A DNA stretch of 31,322 bases, taken from positions 1-31,322 of IMG/VR virus record IMGVR_UViG_3300005288_000102; one strand, written 5' to 3'. A program made the position numbers and the translations under genes. Below the pieces are notes generated by a model. The model was not told the origin of the DNA. It saw nothing but the letters and a program-made list of their open reading frames with translations, and searched no databases. This DNA is from a virus. This document shows positions 5,219-31,322 of the stretch, one piece after another (the first letter of the stretch is position 1; every line of letters begins with the position of its first letter).

Positions 5219-5229
5219 AATCAGCCTCT

Positions 5230-9436: not shown

Positions 9437-9446
9437 TTGGGGGCCT

Positions 9447-11977: not shown

Positions 11978-13867
11978 TTATGCAGCCTTTTTCTTGCCCA
12001 GGCAGAACGACGATTTGCCGCGTACAGTGGCGTCAACGTCCTGGAACACACGAATCACCAGGCCATCGCTACCCGCGAGGGTCGAAGTGTCGATTTTCAG
12101 ATCCAGCACGCCCCACAACCCCATGACCATCTGCGAGAAGTCGCCGAACAGCCAGGCATCGTCAGGCATTTGGTTCGTGTCCTCGGCGCGGTAGCCGTTG
12201 ACCTTCCCGTCTTCCCAGATGGTGCGACCGGTATTGGCGAAACGCTCGGTTTGCTGAGCCAGACCCGCCTGCGTAACGCTGGTCAAATAGCCCAGGGCGC
12301 CGGTCGCGGCGTTGAAGCTCGCCACCTTTGTACGCATGTCCACGGCCTTACCGTAGGTCAGGCCCGGGCCATCGAACTCGACGAGAGGAAGGCCCTGGTT
12401 GAGCAGGCCCAGCAGCTGGTTGCCGGTGCCAGGGCCGCGCAGGCCGCCCAGGTCGATTGCAACGCCGAGACCTTCTACCAGGTCATCGATAATCAGCGAC
12501 TCGATCGAACGCGCCGCCTGCTTGCGCAATTTACGAGTAACCGGAATGCCGCCTGCGATCGTCTTCGGCGACATTGGCAGGGTGGTCAGATCGAAGTCGC
12601 TCAGGCTGGCCTCTTGACCCTCGCCGAGCCACGCAAAGTTGCTACCGCTGATTTTCTTCGGCAGATCGAGATCGCCAACCAGGCCGCCGAGCATCCGCAT
12701 ACCCATCTTCGCCAGCACGGTTTTATTGCGCAGAATGTCGATAAACTCGTCGAGGCGCAGATCCTTGTCCACCAGCGCGCCGCCCTTGCCGGCCTCGCCC
12801 TTGGACATGCCGCGCATCAGCAGATCATGCGGCACATAGAAGCCGCGAGCCTCTTTCTTGGTGGCATCAGCCAGAGCCAGGCTGACATTGCGTTCGAAGC
12901 CCGCCTTGCTCCAGTCGTTGTCCGCTGCAGCGTTGATTGCACGCATCAGCGAATACTGCCCGACCTCTTTTTCGGTCAGGCCAATCGCACGCGACGACAC
13001 GTCCTGCATGAACCCCGGCAGCTCGCGCGCATCTTTTTGCGGATTCAGAGGATTCAGCGGCGCCGAGGAGGGTTGACGCTCCAGAATCAAACCGCGCAGC
13101 TGGTCGGGGCTGTAACCCTTGGTCACCGCTTCCTGCGCCAGTTCCGGCTGATTAAAGCGCTGACCGATGGCGAAGATATCCGCAGTGCGCTGACGCTCGG
13201 CGGCGAGCGCATCAGTGCCAAACGCAATGGACGGCTGAGCGCGGGTTTCCGGAGCTGGATCGACCGCCGGGTTTTGAGTAGTGCCAGACATGTTGTTACC
13301 TCTAACAATAATGGTGTTCGTGGTTGCTTCGTGGGAGCGGCCCAGCCCGACGGTCGGGTCTGCAGGCACGGAGACGCTGGAGACCTCGAAAGGCTCCCAG
13401 CGGGTGACGCGGTAAAATTCCTGATTGCCCTCGGTTCGCTCGAGGGTCATTTCAAGCGGGATGTAGCCGATCGAAACGTTCTGGCGAATGTTGTCGACCA
13501 AATCCCGCCAGATTTTTTCGGCCTCGTCGTTGCGCGAGAGCTTCACCTTGACGTGCAGGCGCCGCTCCTCGAGCCAGGCCTCGAGCACGACGCCGATCTG
13601 TCCCGACCAGGCGTTGTGCTGCAGCAGATACGGCGCGCCGTTGCGCATCCGAGTCAGATCGACCGACGCCTCGCCGTGGTCGAGCACTTCCATGCCAAAC
13701 CAGCGCGCTACGGGGTATTCACTGGAAGCGGAGAAAACAACCGTCCGAGCCTCCTCGTCGATCGTTCCGGAAACAAAAGACAGGTCGCGCTTTAGCTTCC
13801 CGCCTGGAATTTCTCGCAAGACCGGCAGCGGCGCGCCGCTAGTCTTCACTGTCGTCGTGCCGGTCAT
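11978..13867 (-). CDS. HK97-type prohead protease fused to major capsid protein
   Basis: A 629-residue fusion. The start at ATG 13867 has a TGAGGA Shine-Dalgarno and overlaps the portal end by ~29 bases. Residues ~1-180 are a prohead protease of the U35/S78 type: LLQHN around residue 75 gives the catalytic His, and NVSIGYIPLEM gives the catalytic Ser region. From ~193 onwards is a capsid protein with an N-terminal helical delta-like region (ERQRTADIFAIGQRFNQPEL) and an HK97-fold body ending ...DGLVIRVFQDVDATVRGKSS. The protease normally cleaves the delta region during maturation. An internal ribosome site at 13298-13303 could also give the capsid part alone. Fusion of protease and capsid genes is known in other phages. 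Confidence 0.92.
   Translation of the reverse strand: MTGTTTVKTSGAPLPVLREIPGGKLKRDLSFVSGTIDEEARTVVFSASSEYPVARWFGMEVLDHGEASVDLTRMRNGAPYLLQHNAWSGQIGVVLEAWLEERRLHVKVKLSRNDEAEKIWRDLVDNIRQNVSIGYIPLEMTLERTEGNQEFYRVTRWEPFEVSSVSVPADPTVGLGRSHEATTNTIIVRGNNMSGTTQNPAVDPAPETRAQPSIAFGTDALAAERQRTADIFAIGQRFNQPELAQEAVTKGYSPDQLRGLILERQPSSAPLNPLNPQKDARELPGFMQDVSSRAIGLTEKEVGQYSLMRAINAAADNDWSKAGFERNVSLALADATKKEARGFYVPHDLLMRGMSKGEAGKGGALVDKDLRLDEFIDILRNKTVLAKMGMRMLGGLVGDLDLPKKISGSNFAWLGEGQEASLSDFDLTTLPMSPKTIAGGIPVTRKLRKQAARSIESLIIDDLVEGLGVAIDLGGLRGPGTGNQLLGLLNQGLPLVEFDGPGLTYGKAVDMRTKVASFNAATGALGYLTSVTQAGLAQQTERFANTGRTIWEDGKVNGYRAEDTNQMPDDAWLFGDFSQMVMGLWGVLDLKIDTSTLAGSDGLVIRVFQDVDATVRGKSSFCLGKKKAA
13291..13303 (-). 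promoter_or_regulatory. Internal ribosome binding site for a free capsid protein
   Basis: On the minus strand AGAGGT (13303-13298) is followed by six bases and ATG at 13291, in frame with the protease-capsid gene at codon 193. Translation from here would give a ~436-residue protein starting MSGTTQNPAV, the size of an HK97-fold capsid with its delta region. The site is better than that of the full-length start. Confidence 0.55.
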
Positions 13868-15350
13868 TCGGCGATTCCTCATCAGGGGTTTGCGGCTCGT
13901 CGACGAGCAGCCCAAGCTCGCGCAGGTGCTGTTCCTCGGCTGCGATTTCTTCGAAAACTTCGTCGGGGTCATCGCCGTTGAGGCGGATGTAGTGAGATCG
14001 GGACTTGATGCGGCCCTGCACGCTTTCGCGGGCCGCCTTGGAGTCCTTCAGCGGGTCGACCCAATCCCAGCCGCGCGGCTGCCAGGTCATCTCGGAAACG
14101 CGCTGCAGGTCGCGCGGCGGGATCTTGATCGCACCGCTCAGAAACGCGCTGTTAAACCACTCGTCGCCCAGGCGCTTGAGCAGGGAGCTAATCGTGAATT
14201 CCTGAACGCACTTGTAAAAATCGCGTTCGTCGATTTCACCTGATCGGAGCGACGAGTAATTCACGCCCTCGAGATCGTTGGCCAGACGGTTGTAACTCGG
14301 GCCAAGGCCCGCAGCACTGCCGCGCAGGGTGTCTTTCACGAATGGCGCGTAGTCACTCGCCGGGATGCTGTTTTGCGCCGGCACATAGTCCAGACCGTAG
14401 GCCATGACTTTTGCGGTACCGGCTTCCACTTCCTCGAATACCGGGGCGTCCTGGCCTTCGTCTGGCGGGTCGAGCCATTCCGCGTCCTGCTTGAAAAAAC
14501 CGGTGATCTTCGACGCGTGCTCAGCCTTGACCATCGTCGAGCTACGAAACTCGCCCAGATGATGGATATCGACCGCCGCCGCATGCGTCCAGGTGAAGCC
14601 TCGCGACTGGTGCGGTCGCCACGGGTCGAAGGTATGGATCAACTCGCTGGCCAGGATGCGCGTGTAACGCTCCTCAGCACTGCGAATCACGTCGCCCGGG
14701 TGATCGTTGAGCATCCAGTAAGCGACAGGGCGTTCCCAGGAATCGAACTCGACGCCCATCCGGATACGATTACCGTTGTCCAGGAGCGTGTTTAGATGCA
14801 GATCCAGCCGATCGGCCTCGAGGATCTGCACGGCAAACCCCCAGCGGTTCGGCCAGTTGCGCACCAGGCGCACCAGCACCTCACCATCACGGGCCAGCGT
14901 CTCGATCCAGAGCCACAGGAACGTGACAAAGTCGAGCTTACCGGTCACGTCGAAGTTGCCCATTTCGCCGAACTGCGCGAATTCTTTCTCGATCAAACGA
15001 CGCGTCGCGCGATCGGATTTCCCATCCGGCAGCACCGCCTTTGACTGCAGGCGGATACCGTAAGGCCCGATTACGTTCTGCCTCAGCAACCGATAAAAAC
15101 GCTTGAGGTACGACGTGTTGATCGACTGCTCGCGAGCTCGCTGGCGCAGCGTTTCGTGATCGCGAAAAATCGCCTGATTCGCATCAGCCGCGCTTTGTCG
15201 ATCTGACCAGGACGCCGTCAGACGACCGCCGCCGGCCATCTTGAAACTACGTTTCAGCGTCGGCTCTACTCGGCCAGCAGGCGCCGCCGGATCAGGCGCG
15301 CGCTTGCCGCCGCCTCGCCACCGGGAGAAGGCTTGTTTGAAGGGATTCAT
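13839..15350 (-). CDS. Portal protein (lambda family)
   Basis: A 503-residue portal. A basic N-terminus (MNPFKQAFSRWRGGGKRAPD) precedes the lambda-portal pattern SINTSYLKRFYRLLRQNVIG at ~95-115, the clip/stem regions with VTFLWLWIETLARDGEVLVR and LEADRLDLHLNTLLDNGN, and HTFDPWRPHQSRGFTW at ~240. The C-terminus is acidic (PDEESPNDRHDDSED). It forms the dodecameric ring at the packaging vertex and binds TerL. The start lies three bases after the upstream stop. Length agrees with family (~500). Confidence 0.93.
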   Translation of the reverse strand: MNPFKQAFSRWRGGGKRAPDPAAPAGRVEPTLKRSFKMAGGGRLTASWSDRQSAADANQAIFRDHETLRQRAREQSINTSYLKRFYRLLRQNVIGPYGIRLQSKAVLPDGKSDRATRRLIEKEFAQFGEMGNFDVTGKLDFVTFLWLWIETLARDGEVLVRLVRNWPNRWGFAVQILEADRLDLHLNTLLDNGNRIRMGVEFDSWERPVAYWMLNDHPGDVIRSAEERYTRILASELIHTFDPWRPHQSRGFTWTHAAAVDIHHLGEFRSSTMVKAEHASKITGFFKQDAEWLDPPDEGQDAPVFEEVEAGTAKVMAYGLDYVPAQNSIPASDYAPFVKDTLRGSAAGLGPSYNRLANDLEGVNYSSLRSGEIDERDFYKCVQEFTISSLLKRLGDEWFNSAFLSGAIKIPPRDLQRVSEMTWQPRGWDWVDPLKDSKAARESVQGRIKSRSHYIRLNGDDPDEVFEEIAAEEQHLRELGLLVDEPQTPDEESPNDRHDDSED

Positions 15351-15905: not shown

Positions 15906-17963
15906 CTACCTGCTCGGCTTTTTGATGATTTTGAATCGACTGCGAGCCTTGGCCGATGGGGCATCGACCTTGCGCTGCCTGGTCGGCTTGGCCGGCTCTG
16001 CAGCTGGTGGCGCCGAGGGCGCTGCCGGCGGCGGCACCTTGACCGGCTCCACCTCCTGCAGATCCTCCGCTATGGCTTCTTGCAACGGCCCAGCCTTCAC
16101 CGCATCGAACAACTGCACGCGGGTCAGGGCGCCCAACTTGCGGCGCTGCAGCTTGTCGCGCAGGGCCATGATGTATTGCATCGCCTCGCAGTCCAGGGCG
16201 TGGTTTTCACCGACCTTGACGAAAACCCCCTCAGCCTCGCGCCACTCCTCACCCACTACCTCTTTGCAGTAGCCCTCGGTTACTTGCTGGTGCAGCAGCC
16301 ACCAGCCCGTGCGGGTGTCCTCGCGGTTGAAGCGGCCGTGTACCCAGCGCTTGGCGAACGGCGAATCGAAAGCCCATCGAGCGTCGCCGCGCTTGCGCGT
16401 TTTACCCTTGGCGTCGACCTCTACGATCTCTTTCCGAAACGGCTTGTCGAGACGATCGCGACCACGCAGGGCAATCACCCTGTTTTTGTTGCCGTCGTTG
16501 ATGAACCGATAGACCTGGTCATCGCGATAACCGATGTCGATCCCGGTCATGTTGATCGGATGGCCGTCGTATTCGGTGTCGATCAGATCGCCGAGCTGAT
16601 CCCATACGCCGTCCTGGTCGGTATCGCCCCACAGTTCGCCATGCTCGAGGAGCATCGAGCCCATGCCGGCGAACCAGGCACGAACAACGTAGACAAGACG
16701 CCGCTTTTGAACGTCGACCGTGCAATAGATTTTCAACGGCTCGAGCAGCAGCTCGCCCGCCTTGTAACCCCAGCACATGGCCCTGACCTGATCCCACGTC
16801 GGCACGTCGCCGGCCTGCGCGTAGCACTCGCCGAAACCGGTGTTGTAAACGGCCAGCAGATCCGCAGGGTCGCCCGACAACTGCGCCGCCAATAGATCCT
16901 TGGCCAGGGCGCCGTATGTCTTTTTCGAGGAGAACGAGCACAACCCCGAAGCCGCGTAGGTGAAGTGAGTCGAGCCTGCAGTATCCGCAACGCCCGTCAC
17001 CTCACCGTCGCGGCTGATCGATTGACCAGGAGCAACAGCACGGCCGCGCTCGTTCATCCAGGGGCGCCATTTGCTTTCGATCTGGCAACCACTGGCGCCA
17101 CAAGTGAGGCGAGCGCCCCGCTGCGCTTCGTCAGGAGTACATTCGTTCTCAGCGCCCTTGCCTGGCCACCAGAGCAGCCCCGACCAGGGGATAAAGTATT
17201 CGCCGCACTCAGGGCACGGCACCGCCCATTCGTGGCGCGTGCCTGACTGCCAGAGCTTCCAGACCGCCGAGCCGAGCGATTTAACCGAGGCCACCGCCCA
17301 ATGCTCGAGGCCTGATTTTTCGTGCCGGCGCTTGGTCACCCGGCCGTGTGTTGGCGTGGCCGTGTAACCAATTTTCGACCCGTCGTAGGCATCGCCTCGG
17401 CGCTCGACCAGGCTCACCGTCGAACCCTCGCCCGTGTTGACGATCCGATCGACCTCGTCGACCAGGATCAGGCCCGCCGAGTCGGCCGACAGGCCAGAAG
17501 GCGAGCCGGCCCAAACGAAACGCAGCTTCACCCCTGCAAACCACTTCACGAACGTCGTCGATTTCTGCACGTTCATTTTTGCCAGGAGCGACTCACACTC
17601 GGCGAACATGTCGTCGAACTTCGGCACTACGGCGTCCTTGAGCAGCGGCGCGGTCGGCGCGACGTACATGATCGGCGTCGGATCTTCGTCCAGTCGGTGG
17701 CCGATAACGTTTTCCATCGTGACCGACTTGCCCATCTGCGTTGCCGTGATGAATGTCACCCGATCAAAGCAAGGCTGAGCGAAGGCCCACGAAACGGGGC
17801 ACATGTAGGGGTTTACGTCAGGGTTGAATGGCCCGGGCCGAGGCGAGCTCGGCGGCATGATTCGCTTGTCGCGAGCCCATTCGTCAGACGTCCTCGGCGG
17901 CGGCGCCTTCACCAGCTTCGCGGCGTAATGAATCGATGCGATCAACGTCCGAAGCGAGCTCAC
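15906..17963 (-). CDS. Terminase large subunit (lambda GpA type)
   Basis: A 685-residue packaging motor if started at GTG 17963 (overlapping terS by 80 bases); the frame extends to ATG 18050, also without a good ribosome site. GpA signatures in order: APPPRTSDEWARDKRIMPP at the N-terminus, a Walker A-like ITATQMGKS with Lys near residue 79, a Walker B LILVDEVD near 169, a zinc-like CPECGEYFIPWSGLLWW with two later Cys, and the nuclease segment YCTVDVQKRRL followed by TGIDIGYRDDQVYRF. A basic, Pro/Ala-rich tail (last ~70 residues) probably contacts portal. It translocates DNA into the prohead and cuts at cos. Confidence 0.93.
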   Translation of the reverse strand: MSSLRTLIASIHYAAKLVKAPPPRTSDEWARDKRIMPPSSPRPGPFNPDVNPYMCPVSWAFAQPCFDRVTFITATQMGKSVTMENVIGHRLDEDPTPIMYVAPTAPLLKDAVVPKFDDMFAECESLLAKMNVQKSTTFVKWFAGVKLRFVWAGSPSGLSADSAGLILVDEVDRIVNTGEGSTVSLVERRGDAYDGSKIGYTATPTHGRVTKRRHEKSGLEHWAVASVKSLGSAVWKLWQSGTRHEWAVPCPECGEYFIPWSGLLWWPGKGAENECTPDEAQRGARLTCGASGCQIESKWRPWMNERGRAVAPGQSISRDGEVTGVADTAGSTHFTYAASGLCSFSSKKTYGALAKDLLAAQLSGDPADLLAVYNTGFGECYAQAGDVPTWDQVRAMCWGYKAGELLLEPLKIYCTVDVQKRRLVYVVRAWFAGMGSMLLEHGELWGDTDQDGVWDQLGDLIDTEYDGHPINMTGIDIGYRDDQVYRFINDGNKNRVIALRGRDRLDKPFRKEIVEVDAKGKTRKRGDARWAFDSPFAKRWVHGRFNREDTRTGWWLLHQQVTEGYCKEVVGEEWREAEGVFVKVGENHALDCEAMQYIMALRDKLQRRKLGALTRVQLFDAVKAGPLQEAIAEDLQEVEPVKVPPPAAPSAPPAAEPAKPTRQRKVDAPSAKARSRFKIIKKPSR

Positions 17964-18456
17964 GTGCTCGATGTTCGATGCGGTCGGCAGTAGCTGCTCG
18001 GACTCGCCTCGTTTCTTCAAATAGTCGAGCTCGGATAAGTGCAGGGTCATCGATAAGCGCCAGATCAGCAGCACAACGGCTCGGCAGCGCATCGAGTTGC
18101 GTTGCGTACACGGCCGCGATGCTGGTGGTTAGAGAGACGAACGTTTCGTTGGGGATCAGTCGGCCGCGCACCTGGTCAATTTCAAGCTGCAGCTTTTCGC
18201 GCCTGGCGCGCTTGAGTAGCCGATCCTCAGTTGACGCGGAACTGAGCCCCTCCTCGTCGTCGCCGTCGTCGCCCATTTCTCGGCGAACTTCCTGCAGGAT
18301 CAGCCACTCGATCGCGGCCTGGCTGTCGATCTCAACGGCAACCCCACGGCCCCCGCCACCTTTGACGGGCAACCCCTGCTCGATCAGCTTTGTGATCCAC
18401 CGCTCTGACTTCCCCAGGAGATCAGCCAGCTGTTTTTTACTGATGATCTGACCCAT
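17884..18456 (-). CDS. Terminase small subunit (Nu1-like)
   Basis: A 190-residue DNA-recognition subunit. The N-terminal ~50 residues are a Nu1-type winged helix-turn-helix (IISKKQLADLLGKSERWITK, then a Gly-rich wing before VEIDSQAAIEWL). The rest is a helical oligomerisation region beginning RLLKRARREKLQLEIDQVRG. Nu1 homologues bind cos and hand DNA to TerL. Its 5' side is the longest non-coding gap of the structural half, consistent with a cos region there. Ends within the terL frame. Confidence 0.9.
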   Translation of the reverse strand: MGQIISKKQLADLLGKSERWITKLIEQGLPVKGGGGRGVAVEIDSQAAIEWLILQEVRREMGDDGDDEEGLSSASTEDRLLKRARREKLQLEIDQVRGRLIPNETFVSLTTSIAAVYATQLDALPSRCAADLALIDDPALIRARLFEETRRVRAATADRIEHRARELASDVDRIDSLRREAGEGAAAEDV

Positions 18457-18699
18457 GGGAGAAAGGACTCAAAAGGGCAAAAGTGAAAATGTACAAAGGT
18501 ACAAAAGTCCTTTCTGACTTTTGTCCTTTGGGCACTCGCGGAAGTAGGTCGAGGCCCCGTCGCACCTGGCCGAGCGGTCAGGCTGGCGATGCAGGCCGGG
18601 GGGCCTCAAGTTAGGAAGTAAGGACTGGACTTTCAGAAAGCGACACGCGCGAAGGCCGCGAGTTAGTCACCCGTGAAGGGGGAGGGGTCGAGGGAGTAC
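18457..18699. other. Non-coding gap before terS: candidate cos and regulatory region
   Basis: No convincing ORF in 243 bases. It holds an AT-rich cluster near terS (18471-18530) with two GTACAAA heptamers and the 13-mer AAAAGTGAAAATG, followed by a GC-rich part containing the 8-bp inverted repeat GAGGCCCC (18551-18558) / GGGGCCTC (18600-18607) and an AGGG-rich stretch (18678-18696). Cos sites of Nu1/GpA phages lie just upstream of terS, so cos probably is here. The cut site cannot be placed from sequence alone. Confidence 0.45.
18501..18524. repeat. 9-bp inverted repeat in the terS leader
   Basis: ACAAAAGTC (18501-18509) and GACTTTTGT (18516-18524) are perfect complements around a six-base loop. 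Too AT-rich for a typical terminator; operator or protein-binding dyad more likely. The left arm overlaps a GTACAAA heptamer (18499-18505). Confidence 0.6.
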
Positions 18700-21883: not shown

Positions 21884-22714
21884 TTAAAGTTTCTTCCAGA
21901 GCGCCGACAGCGCCTCAGTGTCGAGCCCATCGAGAGCCGATTGCATGGCATCCCAACGGGCGGCCCAATGCTGGCGATAGTTCACCTCAGTGACGCCCAG
22001 GAGGATCGACAGCCCGGGGCCGTCGTAGCGAGGCGTTCCGGTGTTCTTCAAAAACTTGTGATGTTGCACAGCCAAGTGGGCGAGACCCTTGGCACGCTGC
22101 AGCGTCTTGGCCTGCATCTTTCCGAGCTGAGACTGCACGCGCGTCCACAGCAGCACCACGCAGCCGGCCTCGTCGTCCCACTCGAGCGAATCGGCGTAGG
22201 CGTAACGAATCCAGCGACTCAGCTCAGTCGATAGCGTGGCCACCGTGCGCACCAGGTGCGCGTCCTCGAACGCCGTAGGCCCGAGCGGGATCGCGCTTTT
22301 TTTCTTTTTCCGCGTCTCGCTGCAGGTCACTCGCGTGGTATCCCTGGCCAAGCTGGCCACGTAGTCAAAGGGGAGATTTTTTGCCTCGGCCTCACCTTCG
22401 AGAGGGCACTCAGCGAGGACACTGGCGCGCTGTCGCGGGAATGCGTCGCGCAGGCGCCCCGTCTCAATCACCCCGACGCCGTCCGGCTCAGGCGGTCGCT
22501 CAGTTTCGCGGTAACCGGTGGGCGCCAAGTAGGCGAACAGCAGCCAATCGCGCAGCCATACCAGATCCTGAGCCGTTGGCCCTGCAGGAACGGCATCGCG
22601 ACGGCGAACGACCGGGCGCGAGCAGGGGCCAGGCAGCAGCACCCAGCACTCAAGGTCGTCGACGGGCGGGAACGGGTGGCGGATCTCGAGCGAGAACGAT
22701 TCGCGGGCCGTCAT
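21884..22714 (-). CDS. Unknown early protein, possible Q-like antiterminator
   Basis: A 276-residue protein with start ATG 22714 overlapping the TraR-like stop (ATGA). The N-terminal half is acidic with an RLRDWLLFAYLAP-type hydrophobic helix (LVWLRDWLLFAYLA). A KKKKS patch sits in the middle. The C-terminal ~90 residues contain a helix-turn-helix-like SILLGVTEVNYRQHWAARWD followed by MQSALDGLDTEALSALW. It is the largest protein before the lysis terminators, where a Q antiterminator sits in lambdoid phages. The role is from position and this weak resemblance only. Confidence 0.7.
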   Translation of the reverse strand: MTARESFSLEIRHPFPPVDDLECWVLLPGPCSRPVVRRRDAVPAGPTAQDLVWLRDWLLFAYLAPTGYRETERPPEPDGVGVIETGRLRDAFPRQRASVLAECPLEGEAEAKNLPFDYVASLARDTTRVTCSETRKKKKSAIPLGPTAFEDAHLVRTVATLSTELSRWIRYAYADSLEWDDEAGCVVLLWTRVQSQLGKMQAKTLQRAKGLAHLAVQHHKFLKNTGTPRYDGPGLSILLGVTEVNYRQHWAARWDAMQSALDGLDTEALSALWKKL

Positions 22715-22956
22715 GCCTTGCGCTTCCACGCAAGACTTAGGCGGTGATTCCTGGCCAGAGTAAGGTTGTCTATGCACATCGAGCAACGGGTCGCATTCGG
22801 CCTCAGGGCCAGGCGTGCGTCACTGATCGGGCGACCACAGGCACCACAAAGACGCTGAGTCAGCAGACCAGCCTGCAGGAAGTCGTCGACCTGGAACGCG
22901 CGAGCGATCGCGTCGTCTTGGCGCAGCTCGAGGCCACTGGAAACGTCAGCAAACAC
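22711..22956 (-). CDS. TraR/DksA-like zinc-finger protein
   Basis: An 81-residue protein starting at GTG 22956 behind a GGTGGGGG site. The N-terminal helix (DDAIARAFQVDDFLQAGL) and the four-Cys finger CGACGRPISDARLALRPN followed by CSMC match TraR-type proteins: CxxC-x(16-18)-CxxC. Plasmid TraR (73 aa) binds the RNA polymerase secondary channel and mimics DksA-ppGpp. A phage copy may alter host transcription. The acidic coiled-coil tip of DksA itself is missing, as in TraR. Confidence 0.85.
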   Translation of the reverse strand: MFADVSSGLELRQDDAIARAFQVDDFLQAGLLTQRLCGACGRPISDARLALRPNATRCSMCIDNLTLARNHRLSLAWKRKA

Positions 22957-23188
22957 GCGCACCCCCACCCTGCAGCAAGCGGGCAACAGCCATGCCTGCG
23001 TTCTTCTGGCTAAATGATTGGACGAACGCGGCGCACTCGGCCGGCTCGTTAAAGTGAAGGTCATGCACCTTGTTCTGCGCCGCCGCTTTCACCACGACGC
23101 GAGCCTCTGAAAGGCCCTGACGGCGAGGGAGCTCGAGCACCAGGACAGACTGACCACCAGCGACACGGAACAGGCGAACCGACTTCAT
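22946..23188 (-). CDS. Small early protein, function unknown
   Basis: An 80-residue protein starting MKSVRLFRVAGGQSVLVLEL, overlapping the upstream stop by four bases and the TraR-like start by eleven. Short alternating strands precede an Ala-rich helix. I do not recognise a family. Confidence 0.6.
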   Translation of the reverse strand: MKSVRLFRVAGGQSVLVLELPRRQGLSEARVVVKAAAQNKVHDLHFNEPAECAAFVQSFSQKNAGMAVARLLQGGGARVC

Positions 23189-23649
23189 TCCTCGGCCCCC
23201 TTGCGTGACGGCGGGGCGATCAGCAACTCGAAAGCGTGACGGTCACGCTTTGCCAGATCTGCCCCGGCGAGGGCCAACGCGGCCAGCACGGGAGCGAGGA
23301 GGGCCGCGAACGCCTGAGGATCTTTCCCCGCAAGGCGGGCGCCGCCGTGAGCCAGCAACGTCAGGGCCTCGGCTGATTCTTCGAACCCGCCGGCCTTGCA
23401 CACGTCGATCATCGCCTGCACGGTGCCACCGTAGAAGGTGATCGCCGGCAGGTGGAACGCCTCAGCCTTGAGCTTGGCCTGCGCATCGCGCATGCGCTTT
23501 TTCTTCTGACGCTCGCGGTTCTGACGCTTGACCTTGTCGGCCTTGCTCTCACCAGGCACAGCGCCGAAGCGCTCGGCCAGAGCCTCTTTATCGGTAGGAA
23601 TGACGTCAGACTTCGCAATCGAGCTGACCAGGCGCAGGGCGGCACTCAT
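23185..23649 (-). CDS. Early protein with a basic segment, function unknown
   Basis: A 154-residue protein, coupled to the upstream gene by ATGA. Residues ~35-62 are strongly basic (ADKVKRQNRERQKKKRMRDA) and could bind nucleic acid. The rest is an Ala-rich helical domain (ALTLLAHGGARLAGKDPQAF on). No family recognised. Confidence 0.65.
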   Translation of the reverse strand: MSAALRLVSSIAKSDVIPTDKEALAERFGAVPGESKADKVKRQNRERQKKKRMRDAQAKLKAEAFHLPAITFYGGTVQAMIDVCKAGGFEESAEALTLLAHGGARLAGKDPQAFAALLAPVLAALALAGADLAKRDRHAFELLIAPPSRKGAEE

Positions 23650-24248
23650 GCCGATTCACCTTTCAAGCGAGACAGAAGCAGCATCGGCAGCGGACGGCCG
23701 GTGCCGGTCGACAGGGCGATCATTTCGTTAAACATCAGCGAAATGGCTTCGGCCCCCTCCTCAAGCATCCGATCAACGGCCGCCGGGTCATCGGCGCCGT
23801 CGTATTTTCCGTCGTGCGCCGGCTCACTGGCCGCGATGAAATCGCCGATCGCCCTCGTAACCTCGCCCAAGTTGGACAAGGCTGCCGAAGTTCCGACCAG
23901 ACCGGCGAGCGTGGGAATTCGAACGTCAAAGCATCCAGCCATGGCCAGCAGCTGGTGCCGCGCGGCTTGCTGGTACTCAGGAGGCAGACAGGACAGCCAA
24001 ACCCATTTCCATTCGAGCGGGAAGGGCTGCGTTTCGTGAAAGATGCGCGACACGCGGGTCGCCCAGGCCTTGCGCACCTTCTGGTACGTCTCGACGTCTT
24101 CGGGCGTTTCAAGCGGTTCAATCAGGCGAGCATCAGCTAGAGCTGGCGCCAGGCGTTCGCTTGCAAAACGCTCGAGTGACCAATCCGAATGGGCGAACCA
24201 TCGGCTAGTCTGATCGACGAGTACATCCCTTTCAGTTCGCGTGGTCAT
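23646..24248 (-). CDS. First gene of the early operon, unknown (possible regulator)
   Basis: A 200-residue protein. I chose ATG 24248 (MTTRTERDVL) with AAAGG just upstream; the longer ATG at 24293 would lie in front of the predicted transcription start. Trp/Pro-rich segments (FPLEWKWVWLSCLPPEYQQA) precede a helical C-terminal half with TRAIGDFIAASEPAHDGKYD and EEGAEAISLMFNEMIAL. Being divergent from the repressor and under its likely operator, it takes the place of a cro/CII-type regulator, but no helix-turn-helix is obvious. Confidence 0.65.
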   Translation of the reverse strand: MTTRTERDVLVDQTSRWFAHSDWSLERFASERLAPALADARLIEPLETPEDVETYQKVRKAWATRVSRIFHETQPFPLEWKWVWLSCLPPEYQQAARHQLLAMAGCFDVRIPTLAGLVGTSAALSNLGEVTRAIGDFIAASEPAHDGKYDGADDPAAVDRMLEEGAEAISLMFNEMIALSTGTGRPLPMLLLSRLKGESA

Positions 24249-24275
24249 AGCACCTTTCCCTGTAAATACGGTCGC

Positions 24276-24293
24276 ATGTGGCTCTAACCACAT
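24276..24293. repeat. 6-bp inverted repeat in the early-operon leader
   Basis: ATGTGG (24276-24281) and CCACAT (24288-24293) flank CTCTAA. It lies at the predicted start of the early transcript and could be a second operator or an RNA hairpin. Confidence 0.5.
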
Positions 24294-24294
24294 T

Positions 24295-24308
24295 CTCTAT
24301 ATTTAGAG
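24295..24308. promoter_or_regulatory. Candidate repressor operator over the early promoter
   Basis: CTCTATATTTAGAG is a near-palindrome (CTCTA / TAGAG arms). A 13-base part recurs in opposite orientation at 25079-25091, on the other side of cI. It covers the predicted -10 of the early promoter. Confidence 0.55.
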
Positions 24309-24323
24309 TGAAAATGCAAACAA
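24296..24323 (-). promoter_or_regulatory. Predicted early promoter (PR-like)
   Basis: On the minus strand TTGTTT (24323-24318), a 16-base spacer and TATAGA (24301-24296). The region is AT-rich and divergent from cI. Transcription would start near 24289, leaving a ~40-base leader before ATG 24248. Confidence 0.5.
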
Positions 24324-24395
24324 AATTACTAAATAACGAGTGGTGCCGCTAAGCATCCAGAAGGGACAATAATTACGGGAAAAGGAGAGGGAACC

Positions 24396-25061
24396 ATGCA
24401 ACGCGACTCAACAATCGGCTCCGCGATACGGAAGAGGCGGCAAGCCCTTGGATGGTCGTTACAGCGCCTGGTCGAGGCGTCTCATATTGAGATGTCAACC
24501 GGGCATTTAGCGACCCTCGAAACCAAAGACATGGCGCCTAGCGTCTACGTCGCCGAAGCGCTCGCGAAGGGCCTCGGAACGACCGTCGACGTTTTGCTAC
24601 GCGAGGCGAGAGATCCGACAGCTTTTGAGGCCCCCACCGAGCACGCTCAACGCGTGCCAGTAGTGCCGTGGGATCAAGCCGCAAAATGGGCTGCAAACCC
24701 TGATCCTAGACGCCTTCCGGCCGGTTCATCATGGGTCATGCCAACCGATACACCTTCGGGCAAAGTCTTCGCCCTTAAGGTTCGTGATGAAAGCATGCAA
24801 GCCCCGAGCGGGATCAGCTTCCCGGCTGGCTATACGATCTTCGTCGACCCTGGCCGCAAGGCACTTGCCAATGACTTTATCGTGGGCCACCTTGGCGACC
24901 CGACTGCACCAGTGTTCAAGAAATTGACACTTGATGGCTCGGCGTACTGGCTCAGGTCGCTGAATCCGCAGTTTCCCATGCAACAGGTGGGTGATACATT
25001 CGAGGTGATAGGCGTCGTCGTCGGCCTTCGTGCGGCGTTCGACAAGGGGGGAGTTCTATAA
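24396..25061 (+). CDS. CI-like prophage repressor, HTH plus S24 self-cleavage domain
   Basis: A 221-residue repressor with AAGGAGAGG before ATG 24396. Residues ~5-70 are an Xre-type helix-turn-helix (AIRKRRQALGWSLQRLVEAS, then a HLATLETKDM segment). Residues ~85-215 are a LexA/CI S24 domain: VRDESMQ with Ser133, and VFKKL with Lys175, spaced 42 as in lambda CI (43). A possible cleavage region is RRLPAGSSW near 107-115 (AG pair). It should be inactivated by RecA during SOS. It lies between the early promoter and repA and has matching operators on both sides, so it probably controls both lysogeny and copy number, as CB does in N15. Confidence 0.92.
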   Translation: MQRDSTIGSAIRKRRQALGWSLQRLVEASHIEMSTGHLATLETKDMAPSVYVAEALAKGLGTTVDVLLREARDPTAFEAPTEHAQRVPVVPWDQAAKWAANPDPRRLPAGSSWVMPTDTPSGKVFALKVRDESMQAPSGISFPAGYTIFVDPGRKALANDFIVGHLGDPTAPVFKKLTLDGSAYWLRSLNPQFPMQQVGDTFEVIGVVVGLRAAFDKGGVL

Positions 25062-25078
25062 AAAGAGCGCGTCAGTCT

Positions 25079-25091
25079 TCTAAATATAGAG
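25079..25091. promoter_or_regulatory. Second candidate repressor operator, before repA
   Basis: TCTAAATATAGAG on the plus strand equals the minus-strand sequence of 24295-24307. It lies 18 bases after the cI stop, so bound repressor could act on cI or repA expression. Confidence 0.5.
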
Positions 25092-25156
25092 TGGACGACG
25101 TAAAGTAGCGGGGCTACCCGCTAACGAGCTATTTTTTTTCAAAGCTGGAAAAGACA

Positions 25157-25189
25157 AAGGCCGGGGGGCTTTAGCAACCCCCCGGCCTT
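25157..25189 (-). terminator. Perfect 12-bp GC hairpin, terminator on the minus strand
   Basis: AAGGCCGGGGGG (25157-25168) and CCCCCCGGCCTT (25178-25189) pair perfectly around a nine-base loop. On the minus strand it continues TGTCTTTTCC after the TT of the stem; the plus side lacks a T-run. Could end an antisense RNA and attenuate read-through from cI. Confidence 0.65.
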
Positions 25190-25285
25190 CGCGATAGACG
25201 CACACCTTGCGGTGTCTACTGGTGCAATCGGTTATCTGTTTTAGCGGGCAGGTAACACGACTTACTACTCGAACTTTGCCGTTCA
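25157..25285 (-). ncRNA. Candidate counter-transcribed RNA in the repA leader
   Basis: From a predicted start near 25285 (promoter 25292-25319) to the hairpin at 25157-25189, a ~130-nt minus-strand RNA would be complementary to the repA leader. Antisense control of rep genes is common in plasmids. No expression evidence. Confidence 0.3.
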
Positions 25286-25291
25286 GTGCCC

Positions 25292-25319
25292 AGTTTAGAC
25301 CCGTGTATACGGACGTCAA
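25292..25319 (-). promoter_or_regulatory. Possible antisense promoter in the repA leader
   Basis: On the minus strand TTGACG (25319-25314), 16 bases, TAAACT (25297-25292). The -35 is good, the -10 moderate. Confidence 0.35.
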
Positions 25320-25322
25320 TCG

Positions 25323-25380
25323 TTTGTACTTTTTCACCTTTGTACTTTTGACCAAAGGGACAAAATGACAAACGTACAAA
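25323..25380. repeat. AT-rich TTTGTAC / GTACAAA repeats at the repA start
   Basis: TTTGTAC at 25323-25329 and 25339-25345, and the inverse GTACAAA at 25374-25380, inside repA codons 4-6. They resemble the clusters at 18479-18505 and 20694-20726. Possible binding site of an element-encoded regulator or of RepA itself. Confidence 0.5.
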
Positions 25381-28300
25381 AGGGCACAGGGCTGGAAGCC
25401 TTCTATCAGGAGCGGTTTAACTCCGATCCGTACAGCCTGCTTGATTTTTTCGACGCCGATATTTCCGCCGTCGCGGGTGACGCTTTCGTCAACTGGTCGT
25501 CGGTTCGCGGCCTGGTTCGCCTCAATGGCGAACGCTTCAAGGCCTACTCAAAAGCGAAGATCCTCACCACCGATAGCCGCTACGACGGCAAGGTCATGGT
25601 ATGGGGCGAGCTCAAGAAAACCGACCCAAAGCCCGCGACCGACGACCGCCCAGCACTGGCGGCGATCGAGTACCCGGCCCTGACGTTCAGCAACAACGCC
25701 GCCTCTCCGTCGTACTGGTCTGGCTTCACAGCGCTACTCGATCTGTACCAACGCGAAAAAGGGATCGATACCAGCGATCGCGACCGCGAGTTTTTGGCGA
25801 AGCAAGAAGCCAAGCGCCTCGAGCGTGAAGCCCGCCAGGCCGCCGAGGAAGCCGCGCAACGCATCCGCGAGGAGCGTATCCAGGGCGAATTTTCTGCCTA
25901 CAAAAATGCTTGGCTGACCGGCGAGCGCGGGGAATTCGAATACGAGGGCACCCGCAAAGACCGCACCACCTTCATTGCTCGCGGCTTTGTCGAGGTGATC
26001 GGCGACGAGGACGGTAGCTCGCCTTACCTGCAGAAAAAGCAAATCGGCGCCATCGCGTCACGCTTCAAAATGAAACGCATGCGTGACAGTCACGGTGTTT
26101 TCACAGCCGTTCCTTTGCTCAATATCCACGGCCAATTCCTCGGCCTGCAGCGCCTGTACGACGACAAAAAGCTGCAGGGCACGGGCGTCAAGATGGACGG
26201 CGCCCACTGCATTTTCGGCGATATCGAAACCGCCGAGATCCGGATTTCGGTCGAAGGCTTCGCGACTGGCGCCAGCGTTTACCTGGCCGAGCTCGAGGCC
26301 GGCCGCAATATCGCCGTGGTCGTCGCGTTCAACGTCGACAACCTGGTCAAGGTACTGCGCATCTACGACAAGTTTTATCCGGGCTGGCGTTTCCTCAACG
26401 CCGCCGACAATGACCAATGGAAAGACGCCGGCAACGCCGGCATGCTCGCTGCGCTGGAGATTCACCGCGACCTGCAGCACGTCGCCACCGTGCCGACTTT
26501 CGAATCGATGAGCCTCGACGAGGTGGCCAAGGCCCGGGAAACCGGCAAAGGCCCCACGGACTGGAACGACTACCACTGTCGCTACGGGCTGAAATCGACC
26601 GCCAAGGCGCTGCACGCTCGCGACAGCATGCACCGGGCCGAAAAGGACTGGTTTAGCTACTGCCTGCAGCGACTGGCTCACAGCGGCGGCAAGGATCGGG
26701 TAGAGAAAGCGGCCAAGATGGCGGTTAACGCCGGCCTGCTCCTGGTGCCGATCAAATACAGCGTCGACGAGGTCGTCGCCCGTGTGATCGAGAACCTGCA
26801 CCCAAGCACCCCCGTTGCCCTGCACGCGAAAATGCGCAGCCTGGCGCACTGGATCTGCCGTCAGAAAGTCAATCAAGCCCAGCAGCTGCGCGGCTTCTCG
26901 GTCAAGGCGCTGGCAAACCCGAATGTTCGTTACATGAAAATCGAAGGCGTGCGCGCCGAACACGGCGGCATTGAGCTGCCGGCGCATATGGCCGACCTGA
27001 TCGAAAGCCTCGAGGGCGTGATCGTTGTCCGCGCGCCGATGGGATCGGGCAAAACCGAGAAACTGATCGCGCCGCTCATGAAAGCGTCGACGAAAGCCGC
27101 CTACATTGCGCACCGGATCTCTCTCCTCGAGGACGCCGCCGCGCGCCTCAACGTCGAACACTATCAGTTGGTAACCGCTCGCCAGATGCCGTGGGTTTCG
27201 CACATGGCTTGCTGCGTCAACAGCCTGACCGCGCCGAAGTTCTACAACGCCGAGGAGCGCAGCTGGTTCACTACCCTTGAAACGCTCTGCATCGACGAGG
27301 CCTCCCAGGTGATCCGCCACACCACAACCGGCCCGGTTGAGGGGCGTGTGCGCGTGCTCGACTCTCTGATAGAGGCCGTCGCGGCCGCGAAACGCGTTCT
27401 GCTCTGCGACGCCGACGCCAACGACGGTGTTATCGAGTTTTGCGAGATTGCACGCCCTGGTGAAGTCATCACCGTTCTGGATATCGTCGGCACGACCGAC
27501 CATATCCGGGTTGACCACGGCGACGACGAGACGGTCTGGCAATTGGCGATCGATCAGATCTGCGCCGGCCGGCGCGTGCTGGTCGCCAACGACTCGGCCG
27601 AATCGGCCAAGAAAATGGCCGCTCTGATCGAGGCCAAGGTCAACGAGGAGGAGATCGCACCGGTTCGCATGCTCCTGGTTCACGCCGACAGCAAAGCCGA
27701 CCCCGACGTCGAGGAGTTTCTGCGCAACCCGAACGAGGAGGCGCTCAAGTACGACGTGCTGATCTACTCGCCGGCTATCAGCTCCGGCGTATCCATGACG
27801 ACGCCCCATTTCGAACATCATTTCGGCCTGTTCAGCGGGAACACTGTCGGCCCGTCCGACGCCGTGCAGATGCTGCGCCGCGACCGTACCGCCCGACATT
27901 ACGTCGTCGGCATTGGCCACACCTCCGGCCAGCGTGAAACCGACCCTGAGTCGCTATATCGTGGCCTATTGGTCGCCGAGGATCTGGTCTGCCAGTTCCA
28001 GGAGACGCCCGAAGAATTCCGCCTGACCCGCAAAAAGACCGCTTTCGACAAGATCTGGCTATCGACCGTCACCTCTGAGAACAAAGCGCGCAACAGCTTT
28101 GCGAACAACCTGCTGCTGATGCTCTCCGGCGAGGGTTACCAGGTGCAGCGCCTGGCGATCGATCCTCAGACCATTGACGACCTGACCGACATGTCGCGCA
28201 AAAACCGCAAGTTCGCGGGCGAATTGGTGTTTGCCAAGCGCATGGATCTGATTGACAGCGTCGAGACGCCAACCGAGGAGGCTTTCCTCAAGCTCAATCG

Positions 28301-29228
28301 TCAAGAAGTCCGCAGCGAGGCGGAAAGCGCCCAGGTCGATCGCTACCACATCGAGCACCAGCTCGGCGTTGACGATATCCGCGCGGACGACGTCGCATTC
28401 TATGACGATCGGGGGATCGCCAAGGTTGTGCAGCTCGAGCTGCTGCAGGCGGACGAATCTCAAGCGAAGGCCTACGACATGGCCCAGCGCAAGGCGCGGG
28501 TAGTCCTCACTCAACACCGCTTCAAAACCCCAGCGCACGCGCTGCTGAAACAGATATTCGAGATCCTCACGCTCGATCGTCATTCGGGTACTGGTGAATT
28601 CAACAGCCTGCAGTGTCGCCAGGTGCTGGAACTGCTCAAGCGCGACCAAGCGACGCTTGATCTGTACAACGCTCTGAAACTCGGCCGGCACGTCGCCAGC
28701 CTCAACGCAAAGGCCTGCGCAACCACGGTCGTTAAGTCGATCCTCGAGCGCCTCGGCCTGGTCACGAAAAAGCGTAAGACGAACGGGCAGGTTCTTTTTG
28801 CCCTCAACATGGATAATTGGGCGTTCGTTATGGGCTACGTACAGCGCCGTGCAGCCAAAAACGTCCATTCCCTGACCACCCATGACCACGAAACCACGCA
28901 CCAGCCCCTGCTGGCCCCTGAGGAGCTCGCAGAAGCCCCCAAAGCGCAGCGCGCCCTGACGACAGCGGGCGCGGCGGACAGTGACACTTTGCAGGTAGAG
29001 GGTGTAAGCACAGTTGAAAAGTATCCCTTGGAAGTAGCAGAACGAGCATTCGCTTTTGCTTCGCTTTGCGAGCTCCCCGCCGGCACGCCAGTTGTGCAGC
29101 TGATGCGGGAGATCGATCCGGGGGTCGTGCGGCGGATGGCGGATCCGGGGACGGAATTTAAAGTCCTGAAATGGATGCTCGGATATGCGGCAAAGCTACT
29201 ACGGCCAGAGGCGCGTTATACTGTCTAG
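25365..29228 (+). CDS. repA: RepA-type replication protein: TOPRIM primase and SF2-like helicase
   Basis: A 1287-residue protein, the size and build of N15 RepA (1324 aa). Residues ~130-180 are a charged helical linker. A TOPRIM primase core follows: EGFATGAS near 295 (catalytic Glu), LNAADNDQWKDAGN near 343 (Asp pair) and the GPTDWNDYH block near 395. The helicase part has Walker A VRAPMGSGKTEKLIAP near 555, Walker B LCIDEAS near 642, SPAISSGVSM near 805 and the QMLRRDRTARH arginine motif near 834, like origin-binding helicases. The last ~400 residues hold no motif I recognise. One protein can thus open the origin, unwind and prime. In N15 the origin is inside repA; I saw no iterons here. 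Confidence 0.92.
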   Translation: MTNVQKGTGLEAFYQERFNSDPYSLLDFFDADISAVAGDAFVNWSSVRGLVRLNGERFKAYSKAKILTTDSRYDGKVMVWGELKKTDPKPATDDRPALAAIEYPALTFSNNAASPSYWSGFTALLDLYQREKGIDTSDRDREFLAKQEAKRLEREARQAAEEAAQRIREERIQGEFSAYKNAWLTGERGEFEYEGTRKDRTTFIARGFVEVIGDEDGSSPYLQKKQIGAIASRFKMKRMRDSHGVFTAVPLLNIHGQFLGLQRLYDDKKLQGTGVKMDGAHCIFGDIETAEIRISVEGFATGASVYLAELEAGRNIAVVVAFNVDNLVKVLRIYDKFYPGWRFLNAADNDQWKDAGNAGMLAALEIHRDLQHVATVPTFESMSLDEVAKARETGKGPTDWNDYHCRYGLKSTAKALHARDSMHRAEKDWFSYCLQRLAHSGGKDRVEKAAKMAVNAGLLLVPIKYSVDEVVARVIENLHPSTPVALHAKMRSLAHWICRQKVNQAQQLRGFSVKALANPNVRYMKIEGVRAEHGGIELPAHMADLIESLEGVIVVRAPMGSGKTEKLIAPLMKASTKAAYIAHRISLLEDAAARLNVEHYQLVTARQMPWVSHMACCVNSLTAPKFYNAEERSWFTTLETLCIDEASQVIRHTTTGPVEGRVRVLDSLIEAVAAAKRVLLCDADANDGVIEFCEIARPGEVITVLDIVGTTDHIRVDHGDDETVWQLAIDQICAGRRVLVANDSAESAKKMAALIEAKVNEEEIAPVRMLLVHADSKADPDVEEFLRNPNEEALKYDVLIYSPAISSGVSMTTPHFEHHFGLFSGNTVGPSDAVQMLRRDRTARHYVVGIGHTSGQRETDPESLYRGLLVAEDLVCQFQETPEEFRLTRKKTAFDKIWLSTVTSENKARNSFANNLLLMLSGEGYQVQRLAIDPQTIDDLTDMSRKNRKFAGELVFAKRMDLIDSVETPTEEAFLKLNRQEVRSEAESAQVDRYHIEHQLGVDDIRADDVAFYDDRGIAKVVQLELLQADESQAKAYDMAQRKARVVLTQHRFKTPAHALLKQIFEILTLDRHSGTGEFNSLQCRQVLELLKRDQATLDLYNALKLGRHVASLNAKACATTVVKSILERLGLVTKKRKTNGQVLFALNMDNWAFVMGYVQRRAAKNVHSLTTHDHETTHQPLLAPEELAEAPKAQRALTTAGAADSDTLQVEGVSTVEKYPLEVAERAFAFASLCELPAGTPVVQLMREIDPGVVRRMADPGTEFKVLKWMLGYAAKLLRPEARYTV

Positions 29229-29237
29229 ATAGACAGT
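29217..29237 (+). promoter_or_regulatory. Operator-like palindrome overlapping a -10 element at the repA stop
   Basis: TATACT (29217-29222) is a good -10 sequence but has no clear -35. ACTGTCTAGATAGACAGT (29220-29237) is an inverted repeat with 8-bp arms and a two-base centre. It covers the repA stop and lies 45 bases before the small gene's TTG start. Confidence 0.45.
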
Positions 29238-29281
29238 GATGGCAATTAAACATCGATAGGAACAAAGGGGAGGGATTCACC

Positions 29282-29554
29282 TTGCAGTGCCAAGAAAAAA
29301 TGGACAGAGCGTCCGCTAAACTCAGCCGCGCCAGATCGGCGCTCAGAATGGCCATGATGGCCGGAATGGAAGCAAAACGAGGGGATCTGCTCGACATGAT
29401 CGAGACAGCGCTCGAGAAACTAGAGGAGGCTGAGACAGAGCTCAGATGCGGAGAAAATCAGGATGTTCTGCCGGGTCGACTGATCCCGGCAGAAGATTTG
29501 ACGCCATGTCAGGCAGTGGTTTTACCGCTCGCGGCTTCGAACAAAGCCCTTTGA
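29282..29554 (+). CDS. Small helical protein with TTG start, unknown
   Basis: A 90-residue product. The TTG start at 29282 has a strong GGGGAGGG site seven bases upstream; ATG 29300 has none. Residues ~7-55 form amphipathic helices (SARSALRMAMMAGMEAKRGD, then METALEKLEEAETEL-like heptads). The C-terminus is neutral. Its last 46 bases overlap the 3' end of the protelomerase gene tail to tail. A control or antitoxin-like role is conceivable, but nothing shows it. Confidence 0.6.
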   Translation: MQCQEKMDRASAKLSRARSALRMAMMAGMEAKRGDLLDMIETALEKLEEAETELRCGENQDVLPGRLIPAEDLTPCQAVVLPLAASNKAL

Positions 29555-31140
29555 GCCTCCTCTCTGCTGTCACCCTCTGCTCTGGCGATCTCGACGCCAT
29601 TTAGCTTGGCCACAGCAACGAAACGACCCTCCGAGATCTCGAGCACCGAGACTCTCGGTCTAGCATTCGCCACCTCTGCCGGAACAGCCGGCGCAACCGC
29701 TCGAGCAGGGCGGTTCGGGGTGGCAAGGGCCTCGCTGGCCATCGACAGATAATCCTTGATCGCCTGGCGGTGACTGCCCACGTTAACCGAGATCGCTTTC
29801 TGCGAGATCAGTACGTCAGGCGACGCAGCCACAGCCTTTTTCACCCAACTGTGAATACGCTGCGAAGCGACGCCGCCAGCGGCTTGCTCGTCGAGGGCCT
29901 CGAGGGCCTCGAGCCGACTGGCGTACTTGCTCACTGGCTCAGCCGGTGCCTCGTTGGCGTAGCTGATTTTGAAGGCCTTGTAGCTTTCTTGGGTGTCCAT
30001 GTCCTCATGACCCAGCATTTCACGCCAGAACACTGTCTCGTTGACAGTTTTCCACCGTGCGTCCCTGGTGAAATGGATCTCGAAAACGATTCGAGCCCAG
30101 ATCGCGCGGCTGTCTTTGAATACCCGGGCCTCGCTGCCAAGCACCCGCTTTGCCACGGTGTTTAAGGTTTTCGCGACGCGGCGATTGATCTCGATGTTGT
30201 CCAGGTGCTGCAGCTCGAGCACCTCAGGCAAGGCCCGTAGTCGATCGAGCGCCTCGAGCACCTGGTCGGCCTGAATCAGGCTGTAGATCCGATAGCTCGC
30301 GCCATAGTCGACGCCGCCACGGCGCTTGGCCTGGCCGCTGAATTCGAGCTCGTACTCACCTACCTTTTTGAAGCGGCCGAGCTTCAAAACCTCAACCTCA
30401 CGACGGCCGGTTACCATCGCCAGACCCAGCGCGAGCGACGAGAACCGCTGCACGGCCTCGCCGTTGGTTCCGATCTCGGCGTCGGTCAGTAGCCGGTGCG
30501 CCGCCTCAATGTACTGGTAGTAATTGATCTCGACGGTATTCGTCGCGCGCTCCTCGAGCGTGGCGGTGGCTTGGGTCGCGAGCTCCTCCTTGATGGCCTT
30601 AGGCAGTACCAGGTGCCGCATCACTTCGTGGTCGAGCTTCATATCCTGGATGGCTTCGAAGGCTTCGTGGTCGCGATCCTGGCGAACCTGCGCCAGCAGG
30701 TCACGGTGCGCGAGGCGCAGCTCAGTGATATCGGTCAGTTCAGCCAGAGCATTCAGCTGCTCGGCGTAACGCGGGTGACGCTTTGCCAGGCGGCGCGCCG
30801 ACTCTTCAATCGCATGATGCCGCCAGTTTTTAGCGGTGACGGCCTTGCGAACAAGCGTCAGATACCGGCGATAGCTCGAAGGCTGCAGCTTGTCCTCGTC
30901 CTTGCGGCGCTTGTCCTCATACAGGCGTTTTTTCAGGCTCTCAGCGACCCGCGTTATGCGTTTGGTCTTCTCACTGCGCGACATGTGCGGGTCTGAATCG
31001 ATCAGCTCGACGTCGTGCAACATCTTGTCGATCAGGGGCTGCAGCTCGACTTTCTGCCGAGTGGCCCCGCCGTAATTGCCAAAGCTGGCGCGTTCCTGGT
31101 CTGGTTGCATTTCATCACCTGTCATCAGTTCGTCGCTCAT
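29509..31140 (-). CDS. tel: Protelomerase (hairpin telomere resolvase, TelN/TelK family)
   Basis: A 543-residue enzyme; start ATG 31140 (MSDELMTGDE) with AGGGG about seven bases upstream. The catalytic set of the TelK-type tyrosine recombinases is complete and keeps the TelK spacing: Arg247 in TGRREVEV, Lys272 in GQAKRRGG (25 apart, as R275/K300), Lys342 and Arg345 in FKDSRAIW (as K380/R383), His378 (33 on, as H416) and Tyr387 in LGHEDMDTQESY (nine on, as Y425). It cuts a palindromic telRL site and reseals the ends as hairpins. It is shorter than the ~630-640-residue N15/PhiKO2 enzymes, mostly at the C-terminus, nearer the size of those of Vibrio/Halomonas myovirus plasmids. The AT-rich repeats upstream may control it. 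Confidence 0.95.
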   Translation of the reverse strand: MSDELMTGDEMQPDQERASFGNYGGATRQKVELQPLIDKMLHDVELIDSDPHMSRSEKTKRITRVAESLKKRLYEDKRRKDEDKLQPSSYRRYLTLVRKAVTAKNWRHHAIEESARRLAKRHPRYAEQLNALAELTDITELRLAHRDLLAQVRQDRDHEAFEAIQDMKLDHEVMRHLVLPKAIKEELATQATATLEERATNTVEINYYQYIEAAHRLLTDAEIGTNGEAVQRFSSLALGLAMVTGRREVEVLKLGRFKKVGEYELEFSGQAKRRGGVDYGASYRIYSLIQADQVLEALDRLRALPEVLELQHLDNIEINRRVAKTLNTVAKRVLGSEARVFKDSRAIWARIVFEIHFTRDARWKTVNETVFWREMLGHEDMDTQESYKAFKISYANEAPAEPVSKYASRLEALEALDEQAAGGVASQRIHSWVKKAVAASPDVLISQKAISVNVGSHRQAIKDYLSMASEALATPNRPARAVAPAVPAEVANARPRVSVLEISEGRFVAVAKLNGVEIARAEGDSREEAQRALFEAASGKTTA

Positions 31141-31141
31141 A

Positions 31142-31290
31142 TATACACCCCTAACCCTACGATAAGAATAGCCAGCCAAGCCTATACACCCATACCCCGC
31201 CTGACCGTGTGCACAATTGTACACCCATAGCCAGCACCTGTATACACCCATAGCCCAATCTCATTAACTATACACCCATAGCCCAATATA
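31142..31290. repeat. Five iteron-like direct repeats upstream of the protelomerase gene
   Basis: Copies of TATACACCCATAGCC with variations: 31142-31156 (touches the start codon region), 31183-31197, 31219-31232 (GTACACCC), 31241-31259 and 31269-31290, the last two extended by CAAT. Spacing is 41, ~35, ~23 and 28 bases. Probable binding sites for a telomere or control protein. Confidence 0.8.
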
Positions 31291-31317
31291 CTGACATTCG
31301 AACATGCTATATTGGGC
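31281..31317. repeat. 10-bp inverted repeat at the right edge, part of a possible telomere site
   Basis: GCCCAATATA (31281-31290) and TATATTGGGC (31308-31317) are perfect complements around 17 bases (TTCGAA near the centre). The left arm is the end of the fifth direct repeat. GG at 31321-31322 again pairs with CC of CACCC to the left, so the symmetry may continue beyond the window. The centre is not palindromic, unlike known telRL sites. Confidence 0.65.
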
Positions 31318-31322
31318 AAAGG

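Follow-up and report, generated by a model that had tools for sequence, protein, structure and literature searches.

The combination of a linear-plasmid replication module with a contractile tail raises the question of whether the virus record IMGVR_UViG_3300005288_000102 joins two unrelated phage types, or belongs to a lineage in which both occur together. The window analysed here is the whole record (31,322 bp, 60.8% GC), in which the original prediction saw an N15-style module, at positions 23646–31322, attached to a contractile-tailed phage. That stretch holds only the immunity and replication genes, the tail genes lying at 2–10106, and we have very little doubt that the record represents about four fifths (~31 kb) of the genome of a temperate Pseudomonas phage with a contractile tail, belonging to the phiHAP-1/VP882 (Hapunavirus) lineage and kept in its host as a linear, hairpin-ended plasmid. 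Neither the telomere tip nor the arm with ParA (~7 kb) is part of the window. A near-identity search of the window against phage records gave no match, and tRNA and Rfam scans of it were likewise empty; it is a distinct phage, and a true new member of the already described phiHAP-1/VP882 group.

Protelomerase and replication module

The protelomerase (telomere resolvase) is encoded on the minus strand at 29509–31140. Its open reading frame extends to 31251, and the most likely start is the ATG at 31140, which has AGGGG 7 nt upstream and is kept in relatives, giving a protein of 543 residues. It matches Pfam ResT-TelK_cat (PF16684; 102 bits) and TelK_stirrup (32.5 bits), each with a cut-off of 27, as well as the TelK structure 2v6e (E=3e-57). 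Alignment with 2v6e, using the catalytic residue numbers of TelK, bore out the expectation of six catalytic residues (R-K-K-R-H-Y), found at R247, K272, K342, R345, H378 and Y387; their spacing of 25/70/3/33/9 differs from that of TelK (25/80/3/33/9) solely in one loop that is ten residues shorter. On its catalytic and stirrup domains we assign the protein to the TelK/TelN family, and hairpin formation by this copy at a palindromic target is predicted from the dimeric records of its relatives and from where the window ends, both described below.

In translated searches the nearest Pseudomonas relatives of the protelomerase were 86–87% identical; among plasmid records those of P. aeruginosa and P. 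monteilii reached 86% and that of P. corrugata 74%, with further matches in contigs of P. frederiksbergensis, P. alcaligenes and Pseudomonas sp., and at 16 loci in virus contigs, of which two share a record. The searches against known telomere phages that the original prediction had proposed placed phiHAP-1 (54–55%) and VP882 (48–51%) nearest among phage records, followed by N15, phiKO2 and PY54 at 29–34% (N15 29%). In a protelomerase tree the window falls inside a seven-row clade (100/100) with P. frederiksbergensis, P. monteilii and P. aeruginosa PaLo418; phiHAP-1 lies outside this Pseudomonas-containing clade (join 98/96), and N15, phiKO2 and PY54 stand apart. Pseudomonas is, judging from these relatives, the most likely host. 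A related protelomerase was found in just 2 of 399 sampled species genomes of that genus, so such elements are rare there.

The giant primase-helicase that had been predicted is RepA, a CyRepA1-type protein of 1287 residues (25365–29228, plus strand), which matches NCBIfam CyRepA1 at 354 bits (cut-off 200) over residues 550–1137, with a Walker A motif at 557; a weak Toprim_3 match (22 bits) falls under its cut-off of 27. It is 86% identical to RepA of the P. corrugata element, 50% to that of phiHAP-1, 45% to that of VP882 and 28% to that of N15. RepA and the protelomerase thus have different nearest relatives within 25365–31140: RepA is closest to the P. corrugata element (86% vs 67% to PaLo418), and the adjoining protelomerase is instead closest to PaLo418 and P. 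monteilii (86% vs 74% to P. corrugata), which suggests recombination near 29.3–29.5 kb.

Between the two genes, and overlapping the 3' end of the protelomerase gene, lies a plus-strand frame of 90 codons (29282–29554), 56–80% identical to counterparts in Pseudomonas relatives and with no family match above cut-off in Pfam or PHROGs. It is the only frame in this interval, where family scans and gene comparison detected no LuxR/VqmA gene. The immunity genes include the predicted S24 repressor, a prophage repressor with HTH_3 and Peptidase_S24 domains (24396–25061, plus strand; 70–82% to Pseudomonas relatives), and, on the minus strand, a CII-like transcription activator (23646–24293; phrog_4834, E=2e-51), a DksA-like zinc-finger protein (22711–23064; phrog_54 and a weak Pfam match) and antitermination protein Q (21884–22786; Pfam Phage_antiter_Q). 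The predicted lack of an integrase also held: none was found among the window frames scanned against Pfam or PHROGs, and none is annotated in the ~7 kb of the complete relatives that corresponds to the missing part of the window.

Virion genes and place among known phages

The other 23 kb of the window form a collinear virion module, with contractile-tail, head and lysis genes and a lambda-type terminase. All of its annotated genes lie on the minus strand, and they contain the P2-type sheath, tube and baseplate that had been anticipated: a tape measure protein truncated where the contig ends (2–2053), the tail tube (2862–3371; TIGR01611 below cut-off, 85% to an annotated tube), the sheath (3356–4522; phrog_23, 87% to the P. 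corrugata element and 58% to phiHAP-1), a tail (collar) fibre (5230–7473), P2-like tail protein I (7474–8172; phrog_48) and P2-like baseplate proteins V, W-like and J (8112–10106; family matches and relatives). Family matches also identify a prohead protease/major capsid fusion (11978–13972), the portal protein (13839–15350), a lambda GpA-type terminase large subunit (15906–18092), a Nu1-type small subunit (17884–18456) and an endolysin (phage lysozyme; 19694–20398). The conserved non-coding block before the small subunit gene (18457–18699), aligned with relatives, is the probable cos region; it contains CTTCACGGGTGACTAACTCGCGGCCTTCGCGCGTGT on the minus strand and is common to phiHAP-1 and the Pseudomonas relatives.

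Two stretches of this module have histories of their own. The tail-fibre gene has a counterpart only in the P. corrugata element (67% identity), PaLo418, P. monteilii and NY5520 not sharing it, and is probably a swapped host-range segment. Across 11978–15350, P. aeruginosa NY5520 is the nearer relative for capsid and portal (61% and 76%, vs 47% and 61% to P. corrugata), in contrast to the tail and RepA, which are both nearest P. corrugata.

Nearly all of the 33 frames tested have collinear counterparts in Pseudomonas elements, and most structural ones also in phiHAP-1 and VP882. Five public records of Pseudomonas linear phage-plasmids (pPHPALO418, CP075795; pSTW0522-72-1, NZ_AP022474; pPcorr-B21-055, NZ_CP102178; pNY5520-NR, NZ_CP096940; pF010_1, NZ_CP115281) share the gene order throughout, with 69–86% identity in the protelomerase, 65–86% in RepA and 77–87% in the sheath, and the nearest of them share the spacing of the elements beside the telomere; the DNA, however, is just ~75–81% identical, and the tail-fibre region is common only to the P. 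corrugata element. phiHAP-1 (Halomonas; Hapunavirus HAP1) resembles the window in module order, contractile tail, telomere core (ATAC/GTAT, the slash marking the centre) and lack of a VqmA-type gene, but differs in host, telomere flank sequence and repeats, and several early and lysis genes are not shared. Vibrio phage VP882 (Hapunavirus VP882) has collinear structural genes, but carries the LuxR-type VqmA where the window has its small frame, so that the vqmA-qtip arrangement between protelomerase and repA, associated with VP882-like quorum sensing, is absent here.

Escherichia phage N15 (Ravinvirus) has a homologous protelomerase and RepA and the same type of prophage replication, yet it is a siphovirus with an unrelated virion module, its telomere sequence differs and its TelN has 631 residues rather than 543; the window encodes a sheath and baseplate. 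The resemblance in gene types and order to the N15 module might suggest a recent chimera, in which an unrelated P2-like phage had lately acquired a linear-plasmid replication module of N15 type. We rejected this as extremely improbable: the proteins are just 28–29% identical to those of N15, and the same linkage of module to tail, in the same gene order, recurs in phiHAP-1, VP882 and the five Pseudomonas plasmid records, making it ancestral to the lineage. The predicted protelomerase/RepA module in a contractile-tailed phage therefore stands, and its description as an attached N15 module does not. As in phiHAP-1 and VP882, the protelomerase, RepA and repressor/CII/Q genes are linked collinearly to contractile-tail and lambda-type terminase genes, which places the window with the phiHAP-1/VP882 (Hapunavirus) group; its proteins are about 34–60% identical to those of phiHAP-1 and VP882, a figure drawn from a partial genome and independent of formal genus clustering, and the Pseudomonas clade may deserve a genus of its own. 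The further expectation, that a relative in a GC-rich, perhaps Pseudomonas, host would widen the group, was right as to the most likely host, but the group had already been widened, by the five plasmid records and by the telomere phages reported from Pseudomonas as relatives of VP882 and phiHAP-1 (PMC12042878). HAP-1-like phages have also been clustered, and IMG/VR mined with the protelomerase domain (PMC12802170), and the window record may already be in the tables of that study.

Telomere and probable hairpin ends

Alignment to relatives with hairpin read-through places the edge of the protelomerase-side telomere at 31295–31322, with its tip missing. Repeated 16-bp elements, spaced identically to those of relatives, serve as a ruler that puts the predicted hairpin centre, between CATTCTATAC and GTATAGAATG, 29 nt beyond the last base of the window; the contig thus stops at the telomere. 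An inverted repeat within the window (31276–31290/31308–31322) was rejected as the telomere, since relatives put the true centre 29 nt past the window end. Among the contigs that carry this protelomerase, seven, counting the window, end less than 50 nt from the telomere centre (window, +29 nt; others, +33, +44, -14, +2, +38 and +46). By our own estimate a single contig would end in such an interval with a chance of about half a per cent, so chance does not explain the clustering, which reflects either a physical end or an assembler stop at the palindrome, both of which need the palindrome to be present.

Three plasmid records of relatives (75476, 77056 and 79236 bp) are head-to-head dimers of ~38–39 kb, perfect or nearly so, both of whose centres are CATTCTATAC and GTATAGAATG back to back. 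The two inverted halves are identical base for base in NZ_CP102178 and NZ_CP096940, and measure 39617 and 39619 bp in NZ_AP022474. Such dimers are the outcome of reads passing round covalently closed hairpin ends, and IMGVR_UViG_2713897325_000002 (31688 bp), an inverted dimer centred on the telomere at the protelomerase side, with a perfect arm of 9696 nt, is likewise a read-through of that hairpin. NZ_CP115281 is a noisier head-to-head dimer whose second copy looks degraded by sequence errors; it, NZ_AP022474, NZ_CP102178 and NZ_CP096940 were deposited as circles of 75–79 kb, their true form being linear and half that size, ~38 kb. In other relatives a joined telRL lies inside the contig as a perfect or near-perfect palindrome with 30-nt arms, as expected of virion DNA and of replicating DNA. 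Reads running across the telomere, which the original prediction took as refuting it, do not do so by themselves, as relatives show both joined telRL and hairpin read-through. The telomere centre of phiHAP-1 itself is formed by GCCCATACTATAC and GTATAGTATGGGC.

These joined telomeres, the circular labels of some records and the kinship of the enzyme family with tyrosine recombinases could be read as signs of a phage that is circular or integrated in the chromosome, with an ordinary tyrosine integrase for a "protelomerase". We consider this highly improbable, given the stirrup and TelK-type catalytic domains, the exact head-to-head dimers, the contig ends at the palindrome and the lack of chromosomal flank in the relatives examined; joined telRL is, moreover, what virion DNA and replicating DNA should show. 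The lifestyle of the window phage is very probably that of a hairpin-ended linear plasmid, its hairpins and partition being predicted from relatives at 70–87% protelomerase identity. In the life cycle that we propose, the lambda-type terminase would package virion DNA from cos; in the host, cos would be joined, and the protelomerase would cut the palindrome telRL (centre ATAC/GTAT) beside its own gene and reseal each side as a hairpin, yielding the linear plasmid. RepA would then replicate it, the protelomerase would resolve the joined telomeres of the product, ParA, whose gene stands by the other telomere in all complete relatives examined and is predicted in the missing part, would partition the plasmid, and the S24 repressor would hold lysogeny.

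Repeats beside the telomere

The novel detail here is a telomere-like element, GGGCTATGGGTGTATA, repeated five times on the minus strand (31142–31287; pattern search with at most 2 mismatches, and relatives' spacing) up to the protelomerase start codon. The copies are confined to the last ~180 nt of the window, and even at up to 4 mismatches no further one occurs elsewhere in it; matched random sequences held a mean of 0.0055 copies. They lie at +67, +95, +118, +153 and about +194 from the telomere centre, against +67, +95, +118, +153 and +193 in relatives, and the element recurs in phase at +10, inside the telomere palindrome, and on the ParA arm (outside the window) at +50, +73 and +97. Of the five copies, the innermost shares bases with the likely ribosome-binding site of the protelomerase gene, as do others with a promoter-like site at 31244–31216. 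In a 7-mer test, likeness between the repeats and the phage's own telomere was positive in the window's clade and phiHAP-1, and weak or absent in P. aeruginosa NY5520, VP882 and one other relative, which gives partial support only to an origin of the repeats from the telomere.

As far as sequence can suggest, the array is most likely bound by the protelomerase or a telomere-bound partner, which would repress the gene, cap the ends, or both. Flanking repeats are known beside telRL of N15 too, according to work cited in PMC12624138, and TelN is known to shield hairpins from Mre11-Rad50 (PMC12624138).

A competing account of the repeats, which leaves the identity of the element untouched, makes them a centromere at which a ParB-like partner of ParA would act, and not sites for the protelomerase. 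Repeat centromeres are common next to small ParA genes, and repeats also occur between the other telomere and parA; we hold this account to be a serious contender, though probably not the right one. The same element lies in phase inside the telomere palindrome, it overlaps the promoter-like and likely ribosome-binding sites of the protelomerase gene, and the phiHAP-1 repeats resemble the telomere of phiHAP-1 and not that of the Pseudomonas phages, all of which favour binding by the protelomerase or its partner. The fullest form of that reading, in which both telomere arms carry telomere-derived elements at fixed spacing that load protelomerase, capping the ends and shutting off its own gene through the copies at promoter and start, is tentative and on balance unlikely.

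The window opens no new kind of system. It extends the Pseudomonas branch of linear phage-plasmids by one member and supplies that branch with a clean sequence and location for its telomere. From the conserved array of elements comes a concrete and testable idea for protelomerase self-regulation and end protection; if that idea is true, feedback on the resolvase would be built into the telomere itself.
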